Assembly (NCBI GenBank): GCA_950295325.1
Contig: OX485806.1
Location: 56,105,169-56,169,168, forward strand
Length of the DNA stretch: 64,000 nucleotides
From: Polytrichum commune
Taxonomy: Eukaryota > Streptophyta > Polytrichopsida > Polytrichales > Polytrichaceae
Direction of reading: 5' to 3'
The notes beneath the pieces are model-generated. The model had not been told where the DNA came from, searched no databases, and was given only the letters and a program-made list of their open reading frames with translations. The position numbers and the translations under genes were made by a program. Position 1 is the stretch's first letter; every line of letters begins with the position of its first letter. Shown here one piece after another: positions 4,523-60,244 of this stretch.

Positions 4523-5005
4523 GCATCTATGAAATTTGCTGCCAACAACAATGAATCTTGGCAAATCAGATGTTGCATTGCATCCTTATGAAGAATTGTT
4601 CCTTATGCAAGCCTGCAACTTTAGATCGTTAGAATCCCCATCCTTGTCCACCACAGCAAAAGTAATCATGATGGGAACGTTGGTTGTTGGTTGCAAGGGC
4701 AACCAGAGCATTTGCAACACATATACACCTAATTGTGGAGAATCTTTAGCAAAAACATTTCATCTGCAATATCATTAAGTTCATTACTTTCTTGCATTCT
4801 GGATAGGAAGTCTCAAAACCCACATGCAATGCCATTCAGCAGAAGATAATGAACAGATGGGATGCAGTGGCTCACTGTATATGGCGGTGTCAATTTGTTC
4901 TGGTAGCTCCTTGATGTCCACTTCAAAACGCTCTTGTACCTGATAAAACATGTATTTTTTATCAATATCCACAGAGTCCAGACTTTGCCAACGATTGATG
5001 GACGC
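4523..5005. other. Unrecognised sequence inside the inverted-repeat loop
   Basis: An 80-codon plus-strand frame (4536-4778) and overlapping minus-strand frames (4784-5025) are open. The minus frame includes QERFEVDIKELPEQIDTA, which looks protein-like rather than random, so a captured exon is possible. I recognise no family, and splice sites are not convincing. Confidence 0.3.
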
Positions 5006-6220
5006 TGTGGGTCGTTCCTTTGCAAATTAGCTAAGACTCACGATGCACATCATATAAATTTATATTCGCTTGAGAACCACCGTGCCTCATTAATATGTTC
5101 GGTCTCGAATTAATAATCCCTCTCTTCTCCTTATGATATGAATATAATTATTGGAGTGAACACAATTTTATTATCTTAATTCTTACTCTCAATGTAAGGC
5201 ATCATTGATAATAAGAACCATTAGATTTAAATAAAGCTTCAAGAGGTGTAACAATATCCTCGATAATAATATAGTTTTTAATAAGTTATATGAATCCTTA
5301 AGGTTCGTAGTTCATAAACATCAATCACACAAATGATAGTAATCTTATAATGATGAAGAAGATCTAATATTCTTGAGTCTTCCTTTTTAAGCTCAAGTGT
5401 TACTACTTATAATATTGTAACTTGACATGTATGCATATTGTAGTTATAATTTCATAAACACATCATTGATTGTTTTGCAATGTCACGTTTAACTTCAAAG
5501 TGTTTCTTGATGACGATAGTAATTATAACTCTCTTGAGTTTTACTCAAGAGAGAGAACTCTTCTCTTCGATAGTTGATCCTTCACTTGTAATGACATCCA
5601 ACAACTCACAAAGTATCTTAAGAGAAAAAACACTTTTACTACAAAGTGTTTCTTGATGACGAGAAGTAAACCTATCTCTCTTGAGTTTTGTTCAAGAGAG
5701 AGAGAGATCTTCTTTTGAATAGATAATCCTCCAAATTGTAATGACATCCAACAACTCACAAAGAAACTTAAAGAAAGAAGTTTCAATAACAATTGTAGTA
5801 AGTAGATTATTTCATATCAATATTATTTCATTCATATATATTCAAACTTTGATGTAAATTAATGTCTTCATCATTCTTGTTAATCATAAAATAAGTTCGA
5901 TAGTCAAACATATGTTATATAATATAATATGCATAATACTTGTAAGTTAATTATGTAGTTTATGATAATAAGTTCCTCATCTTTTGAAGGAGTTTGTAAT
6001 CGTTAAGAAGTTTCACTTTAATCGTCCATAACATGCATATAATTCTTCAAACATACAATCACATGTATATTTATAATTCCCTTTTGAGGAGTTCAATGAT
6101 AAGTTCCACTTTTGAGAGTTAATTGTAATTCCGATGTTCAAGTTAAATTGACGTTACTACTCATAACAACTCCTCTCAAAGTTCCATTGATACTCCAACT
6201 ATTCTTGAGCGCTTTGTTCT
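5006..6220 (-). repeat. Right arm of the long inverted repeat
   Basis: Reverse complement of 1-1188, including the duplicated hairpin units. The outer end visible here matches window position 1. The homology may continue beyond 6220, where the partner would lie outside the window. The sequence from 6221 to about 7000 is AT-rich, with (GA)n around 6330, and holds no gene I can support. Confidence 0.85.
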
Positions 6221-17059: not shown

Positions 17060-18810
17060 GCGGCGGGGGAGCTCTCGGCTACTGATTCAGGCTTTGGGTA
17101 ATGGTTTGTTGCCGCTGGAGGAGCTCGGTTACTGATTCAAGCTTTGGGTAATGGCTTGTTGCCGCTGGAGGTCAGCTCGGCTACTAATTCAGTCTTTGGG
17201 TAATGGCTTTCTGCCGCTGGAGGTCAGCTCGGCTACTGATTCAGGCTTTGGGTAATGGCTTGCTGCCGCTGGAGGAGCTCGGCTACTGATTCAGGCTTTG
17301 GGTAATGGCTTGCTGCCGCAGGAGGTCAGCTCGGCTACTAATTCAATCTTTGGGTAATGGTTTTCTGCCGCAGGAGGTCAGCTCGGCTACTGATTCAGGC
17401 TTTGGGTAATGGCTTGCTGCCGCTGGAGGAGCTCGGCTACTGATCCAGGCTTTGGGTAATGGCTTGCTGTCGCTGGAGGTCAGCTCGGCTACTAATTCAG
17501 GCTTTGGGTAGTGGCTGCTGTCGTTGAAGGTCAGCTCGGCTACTAATTCAGTTTTTGGGTAATGGCTTGCGGCCGCTAGAGAAGCTCGACTACTGATTCA
17601 GGCTTTGTGGTAATGGCTTGTTGCCGCAGGAGGTCAGCTCGGCTACTCATTCAGGCTTTGGGTAATGGCTTGTTGCTGCTGGAGGTCAGCTCGGCTACTG
17701 ATTCAGGCTTTGGGTGTCGCAACCCTTGCTAGTTTTCCTTCACTTAGCTTGACCGCCTTTCCAACCTAGCAAGTGCCACGAGCGCTAACCTGCACATCCC
17801 AAGCACATGCATGGTTAGCTCCCAAAACCGCGGACCTTCAAGCTCATGGCTTGGTCACCAAACCCTCCTACACATGCATTCGGGACTCTCCCCTTAGTAG
17901 GTAGCCAATGGCTAAGGTGGACTTCCATCCATGGAAGTCCACTCTTGAGTTGATCATCGTGTTGCCAAAACAACACTACAACCACCCGGAGCACATTGCC
18001 AAGTATGCTCTGGGGGGGTCGGTCGGCTAAGCCGCCTCACCCATATAAGCCTCTAGGACTTTGGGCGGGGCCCCTACCCCACCTTCAAGTACCCTTTTGT
18101 CTCTCTACAAGGGTTGGGGCCAAGTGGACATTTTCCCTTAGCCGCTGGGGCTGGAACCCCCCAGCAGCTTCAGACCACCATAACTTCTACATATGATGTC
18201 TGATGCCCTCAATCCACCACTCTATTGTCACCTACTCTTTGCGTAGATGCCGATGGACCTCTCACTTGCCCCATTCGGGCAAGTATTGAGGAAGTTATGG
18301 CTCCTCAAACCTTGGCAGTCCTGGGCACCATTCCCAGGTCACTGCTGTTCCAGGGTGCTGTCCCGGGACAGCGCCCCACTCAAATTGCCATATCTCCTAG
18401 CTAGCACCTCCGATTGAGGTGTTCCTTAGCATTCTAGAATTCCACCGCCATAAGCTACTCATAACTTATGGCCTTACCCTCATGACTCTTAGTCCCCGTG
18501 GGTGAGAGGCGTTCTCAACGCCCGGGGTCCTCACCCACACTAAGAGTACTTGGGCCCTCTCACCAATGGCGCCACAAGCCCCGGGTATCACTCCGGGGTC
18601 CCCCTTGTGCCCATGCAGTTGCGGGCACTCCTCATGGAGAGGTGCGCGACATTGGGTAATGGCTTGCTGCCGCTGGAGGAGCTCGGCTACTGATTCAGGC
18701 CTTGGGTAATGGTTGTTGCCGCTAGAGGAGCTCGGCTACTGATTCAGGCTTTGGGTTATGGCTGCTGCCGCTGGAGGTCAGCTCGGCTACTGATTCAGGG
18801 CTTAGGCCCG
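17060..18810 (+). repeat. LTR minisatellite, unit about 52-56 bp (interrupted)
   Basis: Repeats of GGCTTTGGGTAATGGCTTG, then CTGCCGCTGGAGGTCAGCTC, then GGCTACTGATTCA. About 12 units lie before the nested LTR at 17715 and two to three after it. Some units lack the GTC of GAGGTCAGCTC. The same array, with a different unit order and number, fills the 3' LTR (33955-34950). Confidence 0.9.
17715..18651 (-). mobile_element. Solo LTR, 937 bp, TSD TTGGG
   Basis: Starts TGTCGCAACCCTTGC and ends GGTGCGCGACA, with TTGGG on both sides (17710-17714 and 18652-18656). The plus-strand copy at 45835-46243 is followed by a primer-binding site, and this shows that the element's own orientation is minus here. 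The same family flanks the methyltransferase-bearing gypsy element at 46244. No coding content. Confidence 0.9.
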
Positions 18811-19188
18811 GAGGGAATTGCTGGTTTGAAGACCGGGTATGAGCCGGGTATGGGACCGGGTATGGGACCGGGTATGGGAAAAGGCCAAGGGCCAAGGGTA
18901 TTAAGGGGATTTGGCTCCACCATTAGAGGGTGGCCTAGGGAGATGAGCTTTTGGTAGTGAGTTGAGGGTTGGTGCGTAAATTAGTGTACGGAGAAGGGGA
19001 TAAATAGAGAAGAGCATTTTTCAATGCTTGTACTCTTATTATGGAATAAATTGGTGTGCAAGAGTTTATGAGAAATGAAATGGATTTTTACGAAGTTGGT
19101 AAGAGGGAGTTATGTGAACATGAATGTGATACCCATGCCCTCACCCGGATTAGGTAGCATAAGGGTGGGTGGTTTGGCCTCACATAAA

Positions 19189-33564: not shown

Positions 33565-35332
33565 TATGAGCCCAAAATGGTTGCTCATATTTGTTTAATG
33601 TTTAGAATTTACTTAGAATTGCATTTGAAGTCGTTATTGAAACAACAAAAAACATTAAAAATAGTGAGGCTTGGTATGGAGTTATGTTTTAGGCCTTAGG
33701 CTTATTTTTGTGTGGTTAATTAGAAGCTTAGCGGCATTAAGGGATTGGGTGAATTAAGTTGATAGTATGTGTGTTAAGTAAGGGGAAGGGCCTCGGGATT
33801 TAAGTGTTTGAATTGGGACCTATGGTGTTGGTTTAGGGGGTGAGGGCTTAATGGATAAGATGAGGTCCTACTAAATAGGAGAGAGGTGAGGGGTTAAGCC
33901 CTCTTGGTTTTGTGTATGTCTCCCTCTCTTCTTCTTGTGTGTGGGGAGCGGCGGGGGAGCTCTCGGCTACTGATTCAGGCTTTGGGTAATGGTTTGTTGC
34001 CGCTGGAGGAGCTCGGTTACTGATTCAAGCTTTGGGTAATGGCTTGTTGCCGCTGGAGGTCAGCTCGGCTACTGATTCAGGCTTTGGGTAATGGTTTGTT
34101 GCCGCTGGAGGAGCTCGGTTACTGATTCAAGCTTTGGGTAATGGCTTCCTGCTGCTGGAGGTCAGCTCGGCTACTGATTCAGGCTTTGGGTAATGACTCG
34201 CTGCCGCTGGAGGTCAACTCGACTACTAATTCAGGCTTTGGGTAATGGCTGCTACCGCTGGAGGAGCTCGGCTACTAATTCAGTGTTTGGGTAATGGCTT
34301 GCTGTCGCTGGAGGTCAGCTCGGCTACTGATTCAGGCTTTGGGTAATGGTTGTTGCCGCTGGAGGAGCTTGGCTACTAATTCAATCTTTGGGTAATGGTT
34401 TGCTGCCGCTGGAGGTCAGCTCGGCTACTGATTCAGGCTTTGGGTAATGGCTTGCTGCCGCTGGAGGAGCTCGGCTACTGATTCAGGCTTTGGGTAATGG
34501 CTTGCTGTCGTTGGAGGTCAGCTCGGCTACTAATTCAGGCTTTGGGTAGTGGCTGCTGTCGTTGAAGGTCAGCTCGGCTACTAATTCAGTCTTTGGGTAA
34601 TGGCTTGCGGCCGCTAGAGAAGCTCGACTACTTATTCAGGCTTTGTGGTAATGGCTTGTTGCCGCAGGAGGTCAGCTCGGCTACTCATTCAGGCTTTGGG
34701 TAATGGCTTGCTGCTGCTGGAGGTCAGCCCGGCTACTGATTCAGGCTTTGGGTAATGGCTCCTGCCACTGGAGGTGCTCGGCTACTAATTCAGTCTTTGG
34801 GTAATGGCTTGCGGCCGCTAGAGAAGCTCAGCTACTAATTCAGGCTTTGGGTAATGGCTTGCTGCCGCTGGAGGTCAGCTCGGGTACTGATTTAGGCTTT
34901 GGATAATGGTTGCTACCGTTGGAGGTCAGCTCGGCTACTGATTCAGGGCTTAGGCCCGGAGGGAATTGTTGGTTTGAAGACCGGGTATGAGCCGGGTATG
35001 GGACCGGGTATGGGACCAGGTATGGGAAAGGACCAAGGGCCAAGGGCATTAAGGGGATTTGGCTCCACCATTAGAGGGTGGCCTATGGAGATGAGCTTTT
35101 GGTAGTGAGTTGAGGGTTGGTGTGAAAATTAGTGTAGGGAAAAGGGGATAAATAGAGAAGAGCATTTTTCAATGCTTGTACTCTTATTATGGAATAATTT
35201 GGTGTGCAAGAGTTTATGGGAAATGAAATGGATTTTTACGAAGTTGGTAAGAGGGAGTTATGTGAACATGAATGTGATACCCATGCCCTCACCCGGACTA
35301 GGACGCATAAGGGTGGGTGGTTTGGCCTCACA
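33565..35332 (+). mobile_element. 3' LTR of the large element
   Basis: Starts TATGAGCCCAAAATGG and ends GTTTGGCCTCACA, followed by the TSD ACCCT. Outside the minisatellite it is nearly identical to the 5' LTR. The minisatellite (33955-34950) has about 18 units, against about 14-15 in the 5' LTR, so the two arrays have changed length since insertion. Confidence 0.9.
33955..34950 (+). repeat. LTR minisatellite, unit about 52-56 bp
   Basis: About 18 units of the same GGCTTTGGGTAATGG / GCCGCTGGAGGTCAGCTCGG / CTACTGATTCA type as in the 5' LTR. A short ACCGGGTATG triplication follows at 34980-35030 and is shared with 18830-18880. Confidence 0.9.
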
Positions 35333-47952: not shown

Positions 47953-48588
47953 TTGGAATTAGACCCTCATCTTATTACTGCTGAGGCACGGAAAACACGA
48001 GTGTTCATTCACTCGTGCCGTAGGTGTTTTGCTTTTAGCCTTGAGGATTTTGAAGGTTATAAAAGAGAACCCATCCACATTCAATTGGAAGACGACCATC
48101 CCATTTTTCAGAGACCTTATAGGCTCAGTATTTCCGAGCGTATTGGTGTTCATGCTCGTTGCCGAGAGCTCTTGGCAGCAAGGTTAATTGAATTTTTTAA
48201 TGGGGAGTATGCTTGTGCTATGGTTATGTCATCAAAGAATGATATCTTTGGCAATTGGACGGAGAAGCGGATGTGCGGAGATTACCGTCCAATTAATCAG
48301 AAGACCAAGTTGGATCGATATCCCATGCCAATCCCAGAGTAGTTGTTCGATGCCGTCAGATTTTCTCAGGTATTTAGCACTTTGGACTTGAGATCCGGGT
48401 ATCACCAACTCACATTACTTCCGGGAAATCGAGTTAAAACCGTATTTTGGGGAGTTGATCAGGATGGGAAGGATCAACTGTATCATTGGAATTTTCTTCC
48501 ATTTGGCCTCAAGAATGCACCTGATGAGTTTCAGAAAGCGATGGACTAAATTCTCTCTGGCTTGCCCTTTTCTCGGTGTTACATTGCA
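47953..48588 (+). pseudogene. Ty3/gypsy reverse transcriptase, truncated before the catalytic YxDD
   Basis: The frame reads IHIQLEDDHPIFQRPYRLSI, GNWTEKRMCGDYRPINQKTK, VFSTLDLRSGYHQLTLL, VKTVFWGVDQDGKDQLYHWN and FLPFGLKNAPDEFQKAMD, the standard gypsy RT fingers/palm. Two stops interrupt it (48340 and 48547). It breaks off after RCYI at about 48586, where the minus-strand sister copy continues with the DD of the active site. RNase H and integrase do not follow, and unrelated sequence takes over at the break. It belongs to the same family as the pol at 41855-44509. Confidence 0.88.
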
Positions 48589-48799: not shown

Positions 48800-48823
48800 T
48801 ATAATCTACGGGGAATGCTATCT

Positions 48824-48875
48824 TGTGAGCGGTGAGCAGTGAGCGATGAGCAGTAATTTGTGAGCGGTGAAGAAA
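48824..48875 (+). repeat. Left subterminal repeat array of the transposon
   Basis: TGTGAGCGGTGAGCAGTGAG, CGATGAGCAGTAATTT, GTGAGCGGTG: six near-copies of a 7-bp unit GTGAGCR, starting 14 bp from the left terminus. Such arrays in DNA transposons usually bind the transposase. Confidence 0.85.
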
Positions 48876-51800
48876 ACAAAATATTTGGTAATAGGTCCCC
48901 TAATATCCTATAACCGTGGCCTAAAGAAATAAATTTTTAGGGTTCAATAATAAGAAGAGTGGGAAGGACAAACAACATGAATGCTAGATTGTGAGTAGTG
49001 AGCAACGAAAAAGACCAATATGTACATGACTAGGGGCATATATATATTTATCATATACAAATTTTCATAGTTGTATTGCATGTCGTATGACAATGGAATG
49101 GACAAAGTTGAAGTGAATGATGCTCATGATAATGATGATCATTAACATTCATAATATGAACACATTGAACAATAAAACAAAACATGATGCAATGATACTA
49201 AATTTTGTAATTGGTCATTATACAACATAAATATAGAGAGTGCAAAAAAAATAGAGTTGGACATTAAACATGTGTAAGTCCTTCAAGGTATATTATAAGT
49301 TAATGTATTTTAAAATATTGATACCAAGTGTAAATATAAGAGTTGAACACGTGCCAACAAAAAATAATTATTAGTATAAGTTAAAGTGATGGAGGTTGAT
49401 TATGATTCGGCCTCTAAATCTATGAACTCCAAAAGCCGACAATCATACCGTTTAGATTTTCTATGGGTAGAGGAAGGGGAAGATTGAGCAGCAAAAACGG
49501 AACCCATGGTCTCGGCATAGATAGGGAGGCTTCGTGGAGGTGATGGACTTGCTACAAAATTTGGATCTTCAAAAAAAGGTCGCCAACGTCGGCGACAATG
49601 TGGTATCACATTGCTAGCACATGACAACATAATTGTGTTAGTATTCATAATAATCCAACTAAATGCATATACAATATAATGCAAGTAAAAATTATACAAT
49701 CAACCATATGAAGGTTTCAAACAAGATAAACAAACAAAACTTACTCACAAAATAAATTGACGGCCTCACGATTAACAATTAGAGAATCATCCAAGTCTTC
49801 AAAATTGATATCTTTGCCAATAGGTAAAGGGGATTGTAGAATTAAAGGCTTCAAGACGGAATCAAAAACATCTTTATCACCTTCCAACGCCAAGAGGTCA
49901 CGCTTCAAAGCGCGGCAAGCATGTATGGAAGGTCCTATCAAAGATATAAGAAAAAATTATCAAAACATAAATAAATGAGAACATGTTAGTTTATAAAAAA
50001 AACGTAATAAAATCATTTCAAAGCAACAAGAAAATGTTTTATATCTATGCCAGCAGTGAGGTCTGCAACAATGCCTTCGGGTTTTGAGAAAACATCAATC
50101 AAACATTGGAAAAACAATGGATGTTTTTCTCGCGGGCCTCTCCAAGGTGTGCTACCATCATCTCTCATTAGTTAAGAACTAGCATCCGTGAAGTTGTATA
50201 AAACATCATCATCCAGACTCATACCATTCTCCGAAAGATCTTTGTCAATGTTCATTTGAAAAGGCAAAGGCATGCGTTTCAATTGAGTAGTATCACTGAA
50301 AGAGCGTCGAAGCAAGATGGCAGTGAATTTGATGGTCTGCACAACAAATGTAACATAAGTAAAATAACAGACTAATCAAACTATAATGTTCAGAAACAAC
50401 AAAATTCATTGAAAAGAATAAATTATGATGAAAAGAGATGTGACACTAATTATTTTGTTTGGATTGTGAGGATTGGCTAGACAAAGTGGGTTCACACAAG
50501 TCCAAGGTCCATGACCAACCTTGAAATTATAATTGAAAAAATATGTAGATAATTCTTTCGTCGACTTTGGATCTTCATGATGAAATATCAACAAAACACT
50601 ATTGTTGTGAAGATATTGCATGCAAAATGAAAAAAGAACAAGAAGGTATGGAAGACGAAGGTGTTGAAATTCCAAGCACAGGAAGCCCCTCCGGAATATT
50701 TGCAATAACCAAATCAACTGATGGTGTTGCCTTTGGAACACCTTGAAAGCAAAATGTGCAATTTGCACCAACCTGAACAACATAAATACAATCAATAGAA
50801 TTCAGTATATTATTGAGCCACAAAATGCAAAACAAAATTGGATTTGTTATTTAACATAAAATTTACAAAAATCGGCAAGAAAAATAACTTAGTAAGAAAT
50901 GCATTGACGTCATGGAAAGATTGAGGCCAAGAGTCGGTTTTTTCTTTGACATTCAATATGTTCAAAAAAAAATCATTCAAAATGGACTCAAATGAGTCAT
51001 TGTCATAACTACGTTATGTAGTTTGAGAAACTTTAGTCTTGATTCTCAAATAAGTAAAAGGCTCTTAAATTGTAGAAAAACCAGGGTTGGTACTTGATGA
51101 AGTTGAAGGTTTAGAAACCTTAAGCTTCTTGCTAGAAGGTTCATCTTTCATTGGACCATTGTCTTTGGATTGTTCAGGCACTTGAACACTATTCTTCCTC
51201 TTGCCTTTAATGGGTGCACTACGTGGGAAATCTTCCTCCACTGTAGGTGGAACAAATGCTGGCTCAAGATGATTACACAATTCCAATTCAGAATGTGGAG
51301 TTTTACTCTTAGGACAATCCAAATACCATCCGCATTCATACCAATGGACCTCATTCCAATCTTTGCATATTTCACGAGTGAACATCGAATTCTCCGATTG
51401 AATATCCTTGAAACTGTCAAAAAATGTTGGTAGCTTATTTAAAGCATTGGCAGGCAGCAACACACGCTTAAAGTATCTGTGTAAACCAAAAAATTAGATT
51501 CAAGTAAAAAGAGTTACAAAAATTGGAAAAAAATGAAGAATGCCAAACATAAAATATAGTCAAGACAAATATCACATATACCTGTAAACAATCCCCCTCA
51601 TGGCTTGAAGTCCCCCAGGCTGCTTATCAAAAGTCTTGTTTATCATGATGTCGTCATTCGATTTGAACAATTTGAAAAATGCCGTTTGCCAACAAGTAAC
51701 CCTCCAAGATTCAACATAATCAGCAAAAAGTGAAAATGTTTCACTATTTCAGGAGCGATCTTGATGGTGATGTTTAATTCAGAAATTGTGGATTCATGGA

Positions 51801-53339
51801 GAGCAAGAGCTTCTTTAGCCAACTGTTGAAAGAAAAAAAACAATTAAGAAAAAAAATATTGAATATACATAATATGAAAATAATACTTTCAATTATTCAG
51901 ATCAAAACAGACTTCAACGAGATATTATTACATGACTCCAAAAGGTTGCTTTGTGTAAGCCTTATCGGAAATAGGCATCTTTGGAAATTTCAAAGACATA
52001 CAAAATGCAGGAATTGAATTCCACAGCTCCAACCATTTAACCTTCTGCGCGGCATCTACTTTCGATGTCACAAGATGCTGAAGTTTTTCTTGATTCATTT
52101 GAGGTTCTTTATAATACAAATCATAATGCCGTTTGATTTGAGCCAAGAAATCATGTCCCAAACTAATATTCACAACGGGTAAATGCTTTGTAAGACTAGA
52201 GTCTAGTTTGACACGTTTGGCATCCATTGCTGCATTCATAAATTCTGTAACTTCTTCGACAAACCTCTCATGCTCTTTAGTGACCTCAAAATATTTTTTT
52301 GGGTCAAATCTCCTGCATCAGCAATATCATGCTGAACAAATAACACAATCAATTAAACACAGAAATACGATTAAAACCAGAAAGCTAATGAAAAAAACAA
52401 AGAGTGCGTAGAGTGGTATGAAACTTACATTATATAAATAATGCAAAAAAAAGATCCTGTGTAAGCGAGTACCACGTTGCAATTGTCTTTGTGATGCACT
52501 TTTTGTATTGGTCAGGTGTCAATAGATTTTTTAAGTTTCAATGGGTAAACTTCCGATAGCTTGCACACAATATGATTGATGCACGACGTTGGTCTTCACA
52601 TGAGAATGTTCAATGTGACTGAAACAACCAAAACGAATTCAATAAGAAATATAAAAAACGAATGAGAAACAAACTAAAAACTTGAAAAATGAAAAAACAA
52701 ATTACAAATTACACGGTAAAAACTTACTTGTTGAGATCGTGCATTGCCGTGAGCAACACCGCAACATCAGGGGATGGATTCCACAAAATATAATCCACTG
52801 AAATGTACGAAGTTGCATCTCTAAAATGATGCTTATCGATAACAGACCTCCATACTTGCAAATGATCATTCCCATCCCAAACCTAAAACTTCTTGTCCAC
52901 AAATTTGTTGAGAATATCGTCTTCTTTTAGAAACTCATCGAATTTTGCACTTTCATTTTTCCAGTGTATATTCCAAGAATTTATGAATTCAGAGGTCACA
53001 TCTTCAGTTTCTATTTGATTGTTTATAACTAAGATAAAGAACACGGCATTTTTGGATATATACCTATCAATAAATCCATGTTCCAACTTGAGAACATCTG
53101 ACATGAAGGTTGGTCGAACCAAAGGCATTGAAAGCAAACGATATAACGGACTGAAGAATCTTGATTTTGAAGTAGGTTGAAACTGTAGATTCTCAATCAC
53201 TGAGTTAGAATCAAACGAATGATCATTTAAAATAGCATTTACTTTCACATGAGAAGAAGTCACTTCACACAATTCATCATCTGGCTTGTTATCAGAAGCC
53301 AAATGTTTTGAAGTATCGTTTCTCTCCATCTGCAACAAA

Positions 53340-53940
53340 GATGAAGAAACTTGTCAAAACACAAATTGTTGATCACTACAACTAAATTCAAAACAACAAA
53401 CAACTTCTTATGTAGAACTTCAATAAATTTTTAAACATAAAAAATGAACTCATATGAAAAAACATTTTACGAACAAGTAGTAGAGCCAAACAAAATGAAT
53501 TTGATCGTACTTATTTTCTAATTTTTCATTAAAATCTTCAATTTTTATGGACCTTCAAAGTTGCCTAGTTGAAAGAAACACTGCATAAAACAAATTTTAG
53601 AATGTACCGTGGGGGTACATTAGACTACAAATATTCAACCCCACAAAAACAGTAGACTTTGGAAAATTCCTAAAAATGCAAATTCAAGTTTTAAATTCCA
53701 CAAAAAATCATGTCTACTGGCATGATCAAAATATATACACTTTTTTGTTTTCAACGTAATCTAAGGTGTTTTTATAATTTTAAAAATTCACCTTTTAAAA
53801 AACCCAAATCTACCAATTTCGGTCTTTGAAAAAAAAAACAAAAAAAAAACACACAAACACAAACACAAACACACACAAAAACCCACATATGCATACACTC
53901 ATATTCACACCAACATACATATACATACAGTCTTTGGTAT
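53340..53940 (-). other. Intron sequence of the methyltransferase-like gene
   Basis: AT-rich with an (AC)n/(A)n tract at 53828-53885. No coding potential. It forms the 3' part of the 2.2 kb intron between the acidic exon and the exon starting ATGGAG at 53329 (acceptor TTGCAG just upstream). Confidence 0.5.
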
Positions 53941-53947
53941 ATTGGTT

Positions 53948-55065
53948 GTGCCGCCAATATCCTCAGACTGTTGATACATAGTAGAATTGGTTCTTCATTA
54001 TGTTATCAAAACATTCAGTACTTCAATATTTGGTTCTTACAAGGGTATTGGCGGTACCGCCAATACCCTCAAATACAAATTCATTTGTCTATACAGATTA
54101 TAACAACATATACTTGTACAGATTACAAACACATGTTTTTAAGCTTGAAAACAACTTTTCATATGCATTTTCAGAATACACAATACATACATACACAAAT
54201 GAAGATAATCACCTCATACTTTGTTGCATCCGACCTTCCGACAACCCGCGACAACTAATATTTTTTTCCACCACCTCCCTACTACCACCACGGCTTGCCA
54301 CTCTTCTCAATGTTCAGCAAACGAAAAAGAATTGAACTTCAGGTTTCCTACCTTGTCTATCAGAATTTTCTGACGAATAAATCTTATTGGATGAAAATTT
54401 ACATTTGGATGAGGACGATGCTTACCCAAAAATACTTTCAGTTTCCTACCTGGATGGTATCGGCGGCACCGCCAATATCTTCATAAACATCGCAACTTTA
54501 GGCCTTAGGGATATTAGCGGTACCGCCAATACCCTTGGTAATTTCTAATGCATTACCTCTCCTATACCCTGAGGGGTATTGGCGGCACCGCCAATATCCC
54601 CAAGCCCTTGTACGTGCTTCCTCTTTCATACCCGAGGGGGTATTGGCGGTGCCGCCAATGCCCCTTAGACCTCATATTTATTTCCTCCTTCATACCCGAG
54701 GGGGTATTGGCGGTGCCGCCAATACCCGTGAGACCACATACGTATATCTATTTCCATACCCATGGTGGCCAGGAGGGTGTTGGGGGCACCACGAATACCG
54801 TTGGGGCCTTTATACATGTTTTCATTTTAATACCCGGGGGGTATTGGCGGCACCGCCAATACCCTTCGGGACCTCCTTCGTATTTCCCATCTCATACCCA
54901 AAAGGATAGTGGCGGGTACCGCCAATACCCCTGGGGCTGTCATACGTGTATCCACTATCATATACGGGGGGTTGTGGCGGTACCGCCAATACCTTGGGGG
55001 CCCTCCTACATATTTCCACTCTCATACCGGATAGGGTATTGGTGGTGCCGCCAATACCCTATCCG
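53948..55065. repeat. Array of GC-rich palindromes (GGGTATTGGCGG...CCGCCAATACCC)
   Basis: About 12 copies of a near-perfect 24-26 bp palindrome whose halves are GGGTATTGGCGG and CCGCCAATACCC around a 2-3 bp centre. The first four are spread over 53948-54535. From 54574 on they recur about every 66 bp as a tandem array with a conserved spacer (TACGTRTTTCC, TTCATACCCG). Several centres alternate between GTGCC, GCACC and GTACC. The ORFs across it are repeat-encoded. It lies inside an intron of the methyltransferase-like gene and centrally in the transposon. Confidence 0.9.
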
Positions 55066-55544
55066 GTCCTCATACGTGTTTCTACTTTCATACACCGGGA
55101 AAAGAGTATAAAATTTGCAGTCCTGTTAATACCTTCTGGACTCTTAGCCGTAATTGTGGTTGCTTATAGTAGATTAGCTAGAAGTGATCATATACCTTCG
55201 CGAATTGACTATAACTGTGTGGAAAAGGATTTAAGACATCTACCTGTGGATGCGAGTAGTCTAAATAGACTAATGTTTCGGTCTGCACTAACCGGTTGGT
55301 TGCATTGACTCGTGATATCCCTTAATGAGCTAATGGTTAGGCAGGAAATAACATAGGTTGGATATATAGAAGGTTTTCCTATGCAAGTATGCGTAGATCC
55401 TTCTTAATAAATTTTTAATGAAATTATCTACTTTCAACAAACTAATGCATTTGCTGAACCATTTGGCTGACTATTGCTCTCATCAAATTGCAACTCCAAT
55501 AGCATTTGTGTTATGTCAAATATGTGTTATTTTCTATGAGATGC

Positions 55545-55961
55545 TCAAAGAATACTTACGCAATAAATTTCGTCTCCAACTTCATCTTCATCTTCATCTT
55601 CATCTTCATCTTCTTCGTTTCCGTGCGGGGAGTTGTTGTCATCTTCTTCATACATCTTGATTTGATCATTTTCTTCCTCTTCACCATCATCGTAGACTCC
55701 AATCTTATCCGCAGTATTGTTGTATACATCCCTATCAACCTCTTCTCTTACCTCTTCACTTTCTTCGTCCAAATCATTCAAATCTATACTCTTTTGTGTT
55801 TTTGCTAAATCATCTATATATTTCTGCACTACAATGTTAGATTTTTTCCTCATACTGCTTGCTTGTTCTTGAACTCTCTTTGTTGTAAAGTACAATTATT
55901 TTCGTCTCTTCTTTCTTCCACTCAATTGTATATTAGTCTCATGTTGATCTATCTCTTGCAT
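55545..55961 (-). CDS. Acidic first exon of the methyltransferase-like gene (with stop)
   Basis: From an ATG at 55961 the minus frame gives a basic stretch GRKKRRK (possible nuclear signal) and a stop, then continues LYFTTKRVQEQASSMRKKSN and a long acidic region ending EDEDEDEDEDEVGDEIYC. The Glu/Asp run is encoded by a (TCATCT)n-type microsatellite at 55578-55615. A strong donor, GTAAGTATT, lies at 55559-55551 in phase 0. The acceptor before ATGGAG at 53329 is also phase 0, so the two probably splice. It could alternatively be a separate small gene. The start faces the transposase start at 56335, leaving a shared divergent promoter region of about 370 bp. Confidence 0.55.
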
Positions 55962-56334
55962 CTGTGATAGTAAATGCTAAACGCTATACAACTCACTTTC
56001 TAAAACATTCATACGAAGTTTGGTGCATACTCCTACATATATATATTCAATCTTATTAACGCATGGTTCTATTCTATTGATTAGAATATTTATTTTGAAA
56101 TATATTGACACCGTGTATTTTCTTTGTTATTTTTTTTCGAAGCGAAAACTCGCTTATTGTAATCTATTTTATCATTTGAATGTGATCGCCTTTATTGTTA
56201 TTATATTTTAGGGTTTCTTCATTTTTTTATTGTTTTCATTTAGGGTTTCTTGCGAAGGTCCAATATTGCCAATACAAATAGTCTTTCATTTGCACATTCC
56301 AATGTCTCTCATTCTCCAATACCCTTAATTCAAA

Positions 56335-59300
56335 ATGGCTACCATTAAAGCATCTCGATCATTTGTGCCCTTCACTTTGCCTCTTGAGGATGATCATCAT
56401 GTGAAGGTCTCAGAAGAGTTGCTTAGTTTGAGGTTCAATCTCCGGATAGGATCTATGTACGTGGAGCAAGAGATGTATTCCACGAACGGCGATATCTTGG
56501 AGACAATTTTGATTCCAAAGAACATGTGTGAAGATGGATACTTTTGGATTTTAGATCCAGGATCATTTAGAGTTATAGGGCTTACTGATTCTCAAATGCA
56601 AGCATCCACTGTTTTGTTGACAAATGGGTCTGGTGCATCTACTGTCGATGATGTGCCTAATATGACTAATGTTAAGATAGAACCAAGTGACGATGATGCT
56701 CTTGTGTTGTGGGATTCAGATGAAGAGGTTTGTCATGTTGTTGATCTTTTTGATACATCACATTTTCCTTATAAGACTAAGTCTTCCAATCTGGTTTTGG
56801 ACTCTGTGGATGTTGATAAAACCCCTCACAATTCGTCGTACATGAAATTGATTCGCCATGGTGTTTCGTCTCAACGTCCACCTCTTCATCTTTCTTCATC
56901 TTCTTCAGGTTTTAATATTATCGATGCATTAAAATGTGACAAACTCTAGGAGAAGGTCTAAATACAATCTTACTGCAATTGATTTTGACACTATAGATGT
57001 ACGTGATGTCAAGTACTTGCCACCATCTTTTGATTGTGATGTTATCTTTATTTTGCCTCCAATAACTGTGGATGTTTCAAATACGTATGGGCGTTCCATG
57101 GATGGCATGGATAAGATGTACGACGGACATCCTTGGTGCACAACCAAAACAATAAATATCCAAAACGATTTTGGATTTTCTTTCAGATGTTCTTCATGTT
57201 CCGGTCATTTACAGTGCACAAATACATATTGTGATTATTTGTATCGCAATGGAGGTGTTCACAACTGCACCGAATGGATTGGATCGACTCCTATCCCATA
57301 TTTTGTAAGGTATGTCTATAAGATTGGAGTGTAAAGTATGTCGTTCAACACCAGCGTGTATTGCGTTGTGTCATGCTTACATAATATATGTTCACTCCAC
57401 ATCCCCATGAATTTTAAGAGCTTGTTTACATCTAGGTGTTCATAAACACCCTGTATCAAATTGTACATGTCGTGAGTCACTTGACATGGCTTACCAATGC
57501 GTTGCCAATGAGGTCATGAAACCACCCACTGCCAAAAACTCTGCAATAGTTATGGCAGCGAGCAAAAAAATTCCTAGCAGACTACCTTCTAAAATCTCCA
57601 TCAAATGGTGAAGGACATCACCTAGCAGGTTCGTCATTAAAGGTCGTCATTGATAAATTCAGTACTCTTGCCACTCCAAATTGTCGTAACTTTGTATCGG
57701 GCTCAAAGCGCTTTGTTCATAGTGGAATGGGCACAATGGATAGTATCATGGCATTCAAAGATCATTCAGGCTTCAAGTACGTCCATGATAGTAGATTCCC
57801 GGGACAATCCAAAGACAAAGAATTTATCTTCAAAATGTCAGTAGATCTTCCGGGAAGTGGTGTGGATCTTGTGAAACGTATGCAGGTGGGAGGAGATATG
57901 GAGAATTCATGGATAATGTTTGATCATATCAAACGTCTGAAGGGCTGGACCACCTTTGCGTGTCATGTGTATGATAGCAAGTACTGTAAGGTGTTGCGAC
58001 ATGCAATCTGAAGATGGCGTAGCTCAAACGCTCTTTTGGGAAAACTTGAACTCCGTCATGTCGGAGAATGGAGTGTCAAAAGTAAATTTCAAAGGTTTCA
58101 TGGCAGATAGCGCTCAGGCTAATTGGAATGCGGTCAAAAAGATTTATGGTGTAGGTGACCCAAGTTTGCCAATGGTGGGTCGTGAACGTACTTGTCTCTT
58201 TAATTGGTCACAAAGTTTGGATAAGGTGACGCAGAAGTATATCAAGACATCTTTGCAGTTTCAGCACAAACAACTATGCAAGGATTATAAAGACGCGAAA
58301 ACAATTGATGAAGCTGAAACTAAATATCATGTCATTCGTTCATGGTGGTTGTCATCCGGAACTGCCACAGAAGAAGGCATTCTCGGCTTGTCCGAGTGGT
58401 TGGGGTTTTGGCACTTTCATTATAGGCAATGGGGTGGTTACATGATTTTTGTAAGTGCTTCATTACTATGTATTTCAGATGTTATTTTAATTTTTAGAAA
58501 TCCATGATATATATTTACATATACCATCTATTCTAATTTGTGTAATATTTTTGCAGGATATGACAATGGATGAACGTGCAGAAATGCCAACGTGTAATCT
58601 TGTAGAAACAGTGCACAACAAATGGCTCCAGTAGTCTGGAAACAAGATGACTTGTCTGTATGAAGCAACAGTGTTTGATTTGATCCGTGCATTCATGCAG
58701 ATTGCAAATTATAGATCATGGTTGAGAGGTGGTTCTACTGGTAAAGGGCCTGATTCTGCGTCCTTGGAATTGAAAGTTGCTGCCAGGTGCGGAGATCCGA
58801 AACTATTGGCAGATGCCATGAAGTCCTATCCAGGGTTGCAAGATCTCAATACTAAGGATTGTGCTTTGGAGGGGTCTAAGTTGTTTGGATCCACCAAACG
58901 AAAGCTTGATCTGCCACCGGGTGCAGATTGTGACCCACACTGACCCGATAAAGTGAACCACTCCATTCTTCGCCCTAACACTAGGGTTAGAAGGGCAATC
59001 ATAGAGGAATCTTTGGTTTTTACAAAGCATGGTGTGGCACATACCACATTAGTGTTAGAGACTGATTGTTTTTCTTCCCATTGCCATATTGCACGATTGC
59101 CAGCCAACTCTGCCAAAAGATGTTGGGCAATGCAAGCCAATACAGGGACTTTGTGCAATGCCAAAGTCGGAACTGGCAAACATGGCACACCAACTCCCAC
59201 GTACAAAGGATTGAAGAAGGAATACCGCTCCACCATCAATGTGGAGTACGAGTTTTGGTTTTGCCCTGATGACATCAAACGTTGTGTAAGTGGGAACAAG

Positions 59301-59924
59301 AAGAAGTATGTGTTAGATTGGCATGTAGTTCCCAGCATATGGCCTGTGAAGATAGGTACCAATCTCTCAAGGCAAGAAGTATTGGCACTCGAAGATGCTG
59401 GGTTCCAATTGCAGCAGAGGGAGGCTCTCTCTCCTCGCCGTAGGCTTTCAACAATTGCGATGCTCCCAATCCCTCGGACGGATTTTCATGTGCCACTAAA
59501 TTTGGATGCCCACCCAACTTCTAGGTTTGGCAAGTAAGTGCGCCGCAATCTAGCAGCACCAACAGTAGATCATAAAAACAAATGGGAGAACGCCGGGCTT
59601 ATGGACGGATATTATGTGGTTGGAATAACTGCCTTTCCATATCCAGGATTTGGAGTGCTAATCAACATCGTCTCCAAGGAGGACATCACATATCGTGTCA
59701 CAATTGGCGACATGCCGCATTGCACATGCCGTGACTTCACCAAAATGTCATGTCAGTCATTGGGAAAGAAAGGGAAATGGGTGTATTGCAAACATCTTTA
59801 TTACGTGTTTAGATTTTTGTGCAAAGTGGATTATGATAGTGACAAGTTCATTCATGCTCCAACGTACTCCTACAACGAGGTCATGCGTTTAATTGAACTT
59901 GCAGGTGTTGTAGAATGTGAGTAA
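56335..59924 (+). pseudogene. MULE-like transposase with DDE core and SWIM zinc finger
   Basis: Starts MATIKASRSFVPFTLPLEDD (56335). A Cys-rich region follows in a shifted frame (GHPWCTTKTINIQNDFGFSF, RCSSCSGHLQCTNTYCDYLY, HNCTEW), then CLHLGVHKHPVSNC. The core includes FACHVYDSKYCKV, CDMQSEDG (Asp 57998), FKGFMADSAQANW (Asp 58106) and GLSEWLGFWHFHYRQWG with candidate Glu. An intron, 58451-58556 (GTAAGT...TTTGCAG, phase 0), precedes DMTMDERAEMPTCN. The C-terminus has a SWIM finger CxC-x19-CxH (PHCTC to YCKH, 59718-59795). The protein would cut and paste the transposon. Frameshifts (56935, near 57600, 57995) and stops (58632, 58941, 59535) break it. Length and order fit a large plant transposase of about 1100 residues. 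Confidence 0.85.
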
Positions 59925-60151
59925 TATTTCAAGTGTTGTATTTAACTGCATGTTTGAGAATTTGAATAAGTGACATGTATTAGTGTGGATTTCTATAATA
60001 AAAACCAGCAATGGACTAAGTATCCATGGTAATAAGTTGCCTTCATTTTTCTTCAATCATAATGCGAGTACTTTATATTCCAAAAATATGAGTGCCAATT
60101 TTAGAAAATATTACCTAGAACCATGCCCAATTGATAAATTTGGTATCATTG

Positions 60152-60220
60152 CTCACATGTTACTGCTCATTGCTCATGTGTTACCGCTCACCGCTCACTG
60201 CTCACGGCTCATTGCTCATG
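60152..60220 (-). repeat. Right subterminal repeat array of the transposon
   Basis: Inverted counterpart of the left array: GCTCACATGTTACTGCTCAT, then TACCGCTCACCGCTCACTGC, then TCACGGCTCATTGCTCATG. About nine units, interrupted by two ACATGTTAC/ATGTGTTA spacers. It ends about 14 bp from the right terminus. Confidence 0.85.
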
Positions 60221-60244
60221 TGTTAGCTTCCCTCTATAATCTAC

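Follow-up and report, generated by a model that had tools for sequence, protein, structure and literature searches.

A decayed Mutator-like transposon of the moss Polytrichum commune carries a partner gene for a predicted methyltransferase-fold protein with a remodelled catalytic motif

Introduction

Mutator-like elements (MULEs) can carry a second gene beside the transposase, and the accessory genes named in PMC6446971 and PMC13317346 are mudrB, mutB, vanB/vanC and genes of the ULP1 and zinc-finger types; the word methyltransferase does not occur in the main text of either. For the Arabidopsis VANDAL/Hiun elements, with their genes VANB and VANC, PMC5735166 describes in VANDAL21 a VANC-binding motif that forms expanding and contracting tandem repeats, which lie in VANC and VANB introns as well as upstream of VANA. 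The present work concerns an 11.4 kb Mutator-like transposon of Polytrichum commune, found at positions 48810-60234 of a 64-kb stretch of contig OX485806.1 (C4:56105169-56169168, the whole of which is here termed the window). Besides its transposase, this element carries a divergently transcribed multi-exon gene, the partner gene, and a domain of the predicted product is related to beta-class DNA methyltransferases while lacking their canonical catalytic tetrad.

The element resembles the VANDAL elements in having a target-site duplication of MULE length, a transposase and an extra gene, and in having tandem arrays of a motif within a partner-gene intron and on the upstream side of the transposase (PMC5735166). 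It differs from them in its partner, which is of methyltransferase fold with an N-terminal part that matches no Pfam family, in its short ends with subterminal TGAGC arrays, and in a transposase without a Pfam MULE match. With DpnA, CcrM, RsrI and MboIIA (PF01555) the partner shares the motif order IV ... VIII - X - I - II, whereas the DPPY of the beta-class enzymes has become DxP(E/D) and the gene is multi-exon, transposon-borne and provided with a long N-terminal region without a known domain. The N4CMT gene of bdelloids is likewise a eukaryotic permuted PF01555 gene tied to transposon biology, but it is described as a host gene derived from bacteria, with a catalytic SPPY, which marks transposons and is not carried by them; the bdelloid enzyme is said there to have no eukaryotic homologs (PMC8885841). 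The mudrB and ULP1-type genes are also second genes on MULEs (PMC6446971, PMC13317346), and the partner is set apart from them, without direct protein comparison, by its N-terminal region lacking a Pfam match. In the openly licensed PMC literature, taken by title and the start of the abstract, no transposon-borne PF01555 gene was found, which is weak evidence of novelty, and the combination of N6_N4_Mtase, transposon and plant gave no transposon-borne gene at the same level. Together, these comparisons support the view that a transposon of known kind here has a partner of a new kind.

Results

Relationship of the partner domain to beta-class methyltransferases

The methyltransferase-like domain of the partner gene is encoded by about three exons at 49742-50772 on the minus strand and was recognised by profile and PDB matches. 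With the window copy alone, the best PDB match was DpnA (E=0.001), and PF01555 was reached at E=0.036, below its cut-off. A search for the domain across the genome (G000, 407.8 Mb in 64 contigs) gave 227 matches, which include families with long open frames. Six representatives were used, A (the window family), B (L059), C (L061), D (L062), E (L060) and F (L063), where B-F are 39-45% identical to A. The profile built from the six families (A1) matched DpnA (5hek/5hfj) at E=1.4e-8 and CcrM (6pbd) at E=1.3e-5, and profile positions 16-235 were aligned on CcrM 31-253, an alignment that takes in the entire domain, with motif IV at its start and motif I at its end. Weaker matches at E 0.016-1.2 included RsrI, MboIIA and further DNA methyltransferases; the list at E<=10 comprised 16 chains, 12 of them DNA or unspecified methyltransferases. 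PF01555 matched five of the six members, with B over the curated cut-off (27.8 bits) and D spanning profile positions 30-218, and phage DNA-methyltransferase profiles concurred (best 3.5e-8).

Chance resemblance was considered and rejected, the single-copy E-values being weak (0.001-0.036) against 1.4e-8 for the six-family profile. Some results weigh on the other side: with the window copy alone, unrelated chains nearly equalled DpnA (1ykd, E=0.0072; 9loc, E=0.0082), beyond CcrM the profile gave weak matches (E>=0.016), and four of the 16 chains are not DNA methyltransferases. As judged by profile, the partner domain is a homologue of the permuted beta-class methyltransferases.

A search of the genome with PF01555 itself listed five matches. 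Those at C1:9662150-9662797 (+) and C4:44111740-44111898 (-) scored 30.6 and 32.2 bits, over the cut-off, and each lies in an open frame of 577 amino acids (aa); they possibly represent a further family, perhaps with the canonical tetrad. The C1 match spans positions 1-216 of the 221 in the profile, and its frame could encode a canonical enzyme, a point to be set against the altered catalysis discussed below. The minor contigs C10 and C12 hold strong PF01555 matches (98.5, 68 and 55 bits) in open frames of 248-722 aa; these may stem from contaminating bacteria or be genuine acquisitions.

The catalytic position and the cofactor motifs

The alignment with CcrM sets a DxP(E/D) sequence opposite the DPP motif of that enzyme. 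In the window copy, the motif IV position (50689-50700, minus strand) reads NIPE, the canonical DPPY being absent, and the representatives read DIPE (A and B), EYPD (C), QFPD (D), DYPD (E) and DLPE (F), of which DIPE is the commonest reading. The tetrad was counted in 26 independent readable loci (21 A-type and 5 others), each locus entering once where its records were duplicated. None of the 26 displays (D/N/S)PP(Y/F/W) and none has an aromatic fourth residue; the fourth residue is acidic in 21 and proline occupies the third position in 23, while the non-acidic fourth residues, namely K, K, Q, V and one stop, all belong to A-type copies. The motifs given for known enzymes in PMC8885841 are SPPY, DPPY, NPPY, DPPY/F and DPPW, all with PP followed by an aromatic residue. 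Decay of one copy was rejected as the source of this oddity, since DxP(E/D) is common to six families and long open frames exist in some of these.

The motif order is retained, and so is most of the signature of motifs I and II. Motif I follows the pattern D-x-x-(A/C)-(G/S/A)-(T/V)-G (DLTAGTG, DVNAGVG, DLTCSTG and others), and the acid of motif II is retained as (L/F)-E-x-D (LEGD, LEED, FEGD) in the families where motif II was readable, all but E. In the window, motif II (PSIHACRALKRDLLALEGD) and the helix of motif I are assigned to the exon at 49742-49934 (minus strand).

The preliminary description of the window had proposed an N4/N6 amino-methyltransferase of the beta class. Its family assignment agrees with the profile search, which finds the DNA methyltransferase family; its assignment of activity is not supported, the canonical tetrad being absent from all 26 loci and DxP(E/D) being the usual form. 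The replacement argues against N4/N6 activity, but not against binding of S-adenosylmethionine, and the partner is best regarded as a putative methyltransferase-fold protein with altered or lost catalysis.

Pairing with the transposase and selection on the domain

Domain loci were picked from the listed rows among the 227 matches, rows of one locus being merged, and amounted to 22 in group A, 32 in B (one of them F-type), 21 in C (three of them E-type) and 9 in D. They were compared with 289 distinct transposases pooled from 39 of the 43 rows of a probe search (split rows were dropped) and from two further searches, comprising 150 rows of one and the first 100 of the 150 rows of a search with P0028 as query; the remaining rows of the latter (65-69% identity) were mostly repeats of the other 150-row search. 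A divergent transposase match within 20 kb was found at 13/22 loci of A, 24/32 of B, 11/21 of C/E and 0/9 of D, while random positions (500 runs) gave means of 0.16 (A), 0.26 (B), 0.17 (C) and 0.06 (D) divergent matches. When more than one match lies within 20 kb, the pairing script favours the divergent one; if the nearest match is taken instead, 47 of the 48 paired loci are divergent. Domain and transposase are separated by 3.8-14.5 kb in A, 9.8-18.8 kb in B and 3.6-19.1 kb in C.

On the opposite side stand a C locus with a nearer same-strand transposase match, the lack of any pair in D, and the 9 (A), 8 (B) and 10 (C) loci without a listed transposase nearby; in earlier, smaller and separate lists, the nearest match lay in a non-divergent orientation at one B locus and two C loci. 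The large number of unpaired loci is due in part to searches that score the best candidates only and in part, probably, to decay; group D may belong to something else. The same partner-transposase pair recurs in three transposon groups of this genome.

Within group B, a run of loci showed equal score and 39% identity to the domain query, and the transposases near them have open frames and share 98-99% identity with the P0028 query, which suggests that B-type elements were recently active.

The ratio of nonsynonymous to synonymous substitution rates (dN/dS) was computed by the Nei-Gojobori method for 18 A-type loci, stops excluded, giving 153 pairs. The 23 pairs with dS<0.1 had a median of 0.86, with eight pairs at 1 or above, and the 67 pairs with dS>=0.45 had values of 0.25-0.54 and a median of 0.37. 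The deep comparisons indicate that the domain has been under purifying selection, a conclusion to be weighed against the fact that these pairs are not independent, few splits being common to them. Old differences appear to have been filtered and recent ones much less so, as would be expected of genes maintained during movement and then decayed.

Structure of the partner gene

Exon 1 (55560-55961, minus strand) encodes a basic stretch resembling a nuclear localisation signal together with acidic stretches, and ends at the donor TTGC/GTAAGT, which was found again in other copies and is mutated in some. The exon probably belongs to the partner gene, as judged by strand, phase and splice signals. 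An intron 1 of 2.2 kb separates it from the further exons at 53329-49400. The middle exons (51066-53329, minus strand) code for the N-terminal region and contain stops and frame breaks in the window copy; the acceptor before ATGGAGA was found again in several copies, and the splice signals as a whole are shared by many copies, while others have them changed or lack them. Downstream of the methyltransferase-like domain, the last exon (49400-49613, minus strand) contains an LPxYAExMA stretch, which was matched in 5 of 20 fetched copies and is also represented in families B, C and D.

Pfam disclosed no relative of exon 1 or of the N-terminal part and added nothing relevant for the B and F frames, and NCBIfam gave no match. 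DUF1985, the Pfam model of the VANC family, had no match in the scanned partner pieces at E<=10 and E<=1. Two homologue searches among proteins of ~520-1660 aa only gave no match at E<=0.001 for 8000 candidates scored and none at E<=1 for 47 candidates; they may have failed because the single open frames in the listed B loci do not exceed 460 aa. Scans of viral and prokaryotic contigs confirmed no relatives.

Palindromic array in intron 1

Intron 1 of the partner gene includes an array of ten units (53940-55056), each built around the palindrome GGGTATTGGCGG-yr-CCGCCAATACCC; four of the nine spacings are 64-65 bp and two about double that. All ten matches to the palindrome in the window are in this intron, and 20 base shuffles gave one match in total. 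Among 20 copies the number of units varies from 0 to 18, with at least one in 16 and at least three in 12, mostly 1.0-3.4 kb upstream of the transposase; the absence of the array from four copies weighs against the targeting role proposed below. The array recalls the targets of VANC, a partner protein that binds tandem motif arrays in non-coding DNA of its element and brings about hypomethylation, although the parallel is anatomical only, and a palindrome would suit a dimeric protein.

The element, its ends and its transposase

An exact 10-bp duplication, TATAATCTAC, is present at 48800-48809 and 60235-60244, in both cases flanking the transposon, and since it occurs nowhere else in the window the element was delimited as 48810-60234. 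The duplication may be of 10 or 11 bp, because an extra C also agrees on both sides; 10 bp fits the range of 8-11 bp given for MULEs in PMC6446971. The left end (48810-48874, plus strand), identified by similarity and repeat analysis, consists of the terminus GGGGAATGCTATC and a subterminal array with five TGAGC units at 48826-48865 (+). Repeat analysis placed at the right end (60146-60234, minus strand) a subterminal array with eight GCTCA units at 60151-60218, followed by the terminus. The two arrays are oppositely oriented, the arms are 78-81% complementary, and the short termini proper agree at 14 of 21 positions in an inverted comparison; terminal inverted repeats are a feature that some MULEs lack.

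The transposase gene (56335-59924, plus strand) has D/D/CxxH/E and SWIM-like motifs and one probable intron at ~58452-58557, and is interrupted by stops and frame breaks in the window copy. In a protein database, 39 relatives were found at E<=0.001 among 4980 candidates scored, and residues D545, D581, C610 and H613 (P0002 numbering) are invariant in their alignment. A CxxH between the second D and the E of a DDE transposase is a signature of MULEs, and the invariant residues appear to fit a DDE transposase of that type; where the last acid (E) is expected, the window reads NLVETVHN. The SWIM-like segment has the pattern CTC-x(n)-CKH and matched PF04434 at E=0.039 with 14 bits, below the cut-off of 19.6. 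Because Pfam gave no MULE domain match in the window transposase, nor in five of its relatives, the Mutator placement rests on the duplication length, the SWIM-like segment, the motif pattern and the layout, a transposase gene plus a divergent multi-exon partner gene. The window element is a decayed, broken copy.

Elsewhere in the genome, transposase matches lie in stop-free frames of 2390-2527 aa at C3:13620523, C3:58494821 and C3:12064395; these unusually long frames may be fusions or domesticated genes.

Copies elsewhere in the genome

A 1-kb transposase probe gave 43 rows in the genome, the window at 100% and the remainder at 71-95% identity, part of the rows being fragments of one same copy. 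Eighteen other loci resemble the left side of the element. In 12 of them the similarity ends at about GGGG(A/G)TGCTATCTTGTGAGC, with minor differences in some, and the flanks are unrelated; the left end in these loci is nearly identical to that of the window element, typically GGGGAGTGCTATCTTGTGAGC, and three of the 12 have just 68-69% similarity across most of the left side. As for the remaining six, the stretch of L056 is cut at its end, L025 has a similar GGAGGAATGCTATC end, and in L012, L043, L049 and L057 the similarity ends earlier. Since the left end is common to 12 of the 18 loci, the methyltransferase-like gene lies inside it in further copies too.

Contents of the partner gene were counted in an 8-kb stretch of each of the 20 fetched copies. 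The exon 1 protein was matched in 18, the middle part in 15 (one weakly) and the methyltransferase-like part in nine, and positions put the last of these farther off in at least three more copies (L009, L011, L013). Capture of the gene by a single copy was rejected, as it is found in other copies and paired at many loci.

These results bear out most of what the preliminary description had said of the transposon. The limits 48810..60234, the 10-bp duplication and the inverted subterminal arrays proposed there were all recovered, with an exact duplication and both TGAGC/GCTCA arrays located, and a Mutator-like transposon is supported. The divergent multi-exon second gene is real and recurs, further copies carrying it as well, and the three peptides quoted in beta-class order were all found on the minus strand in that order (DLVIANIPEG at 50715-50686, VFSKPEGIVADLTAG at 50093-50049 and LKRDLLALEGD at 49908-49876). 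The upstream exon at 55961-55560 and the palindromic intron array are additions to that description.

In two copies, pieces like the right part of the element (59505-60013) were observed, at ~2668-3291 of L046, near the left end of another copy, and at ~2990-3215 of L047, directly beside one. The arrangement suggests nested or tandem insertions.

Discussion

Taken as a whole, the observations are probably best explained by a decayed two-gene Mutator-like transposon whose partner has altered catalysis, is directed to its own element and functions in the manner of VANC. The basic stretch in exon 1 suggests that the partner would be nuclear. It would still bind DNA, and perhaps S-adenosylmethionine, without being an ordinary N4/N6 base methylase, and would be directed to the DNA of its own element, plausibly through the palindromic array upstream of the transposase. 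There it may aid expression of the element or help it evade silencing, a function comparable to that of VANC in VANDAL elements, either without catalysis or through an altered chemistry. A self-targeted regulatory or anti-silencing role is thus ranked above a non-catalytic subunit, and the latter above a plain writer of N6-methyladenine or N4-methylcytosine (6mA/4mC).

A wider proposal can be made only tentatively, namely that several MULE families encode their own sequence-specific epigenetic protein, with a beta-class fold remodelled to DxP(E/D), which would read its own palindromic array and block or rewrite host silencing, independently of VANC and possibly by a new chemistry.

Among the alternatives, the one that survives best, though we rate it below the self-directed role, takes the partner as a catalytically dead methyltransferase-fold subunit with a structural or DNA-binding task, such as aiding the transposase in binding the ends. 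Loss of the tetrad in a conserved fold family is what such a subunit would display, and the MT-A70 family offers non-catalytic partners, as in METTL14 and the ciliate AMT6/7 (PMC12695648); however, the conservation of motif I and of the acid in motif II exceeds the needs of a pure scaffold, and no gene for a catalytic partner was recognised in the window element. It is rather doubtful that, with DxP(E/D) in place of the tetrad, the partner still works as a DNA amino-methyltransferase and writes 6mA/4mC on the element or on host DNA. The beta-class homology and motif order, the retained motifs I and II and the purifying selection would all suit an enzyme, but (D/N/S)PP(Y/F/W) is missing from all 26 loci, E or D stands for the aromatic fourth residue in six families, and the known enzymes' motifs in PMC8885841 all retain PP and an aromatic residue. 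Chance capture of a host gene fragment without a role for the element, in the style of a Pack-MULE, is very improbable, for although MULEs often take up host sequence (PMC6446971), the same divergent pairing is seen in three groups, dN/dS is low in the deep pairs, and the gene has a multi-exon architecture with recurring splice signals.

A methyltransferase-fold partner in three element groups, with a remodelled motif and a cognate-looking array, offers a case, open to test, in which transposons would have evolved tools of their own for chromatin or DNA modification, and with this partner the permuted amino-methyltransferases gain a eukaryotic branch.

Other features of the window

Just outside the element, the frame at 48343-48549 reads, by eye, like a Ty3-type reverse transcriptase. 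Self-comparison of the window disclosed arrays of short tandem units with offsets of ~50-100 bp at 17074-17715, 18652-19184 and 33962-34947, which are ~83-94% alike between places and adjoin longer shared repeats. The same approach revealed a 1.2-kb inverted repeat pair with 90% identity at 1-1196 and 4998-6219, probably another mobile element.

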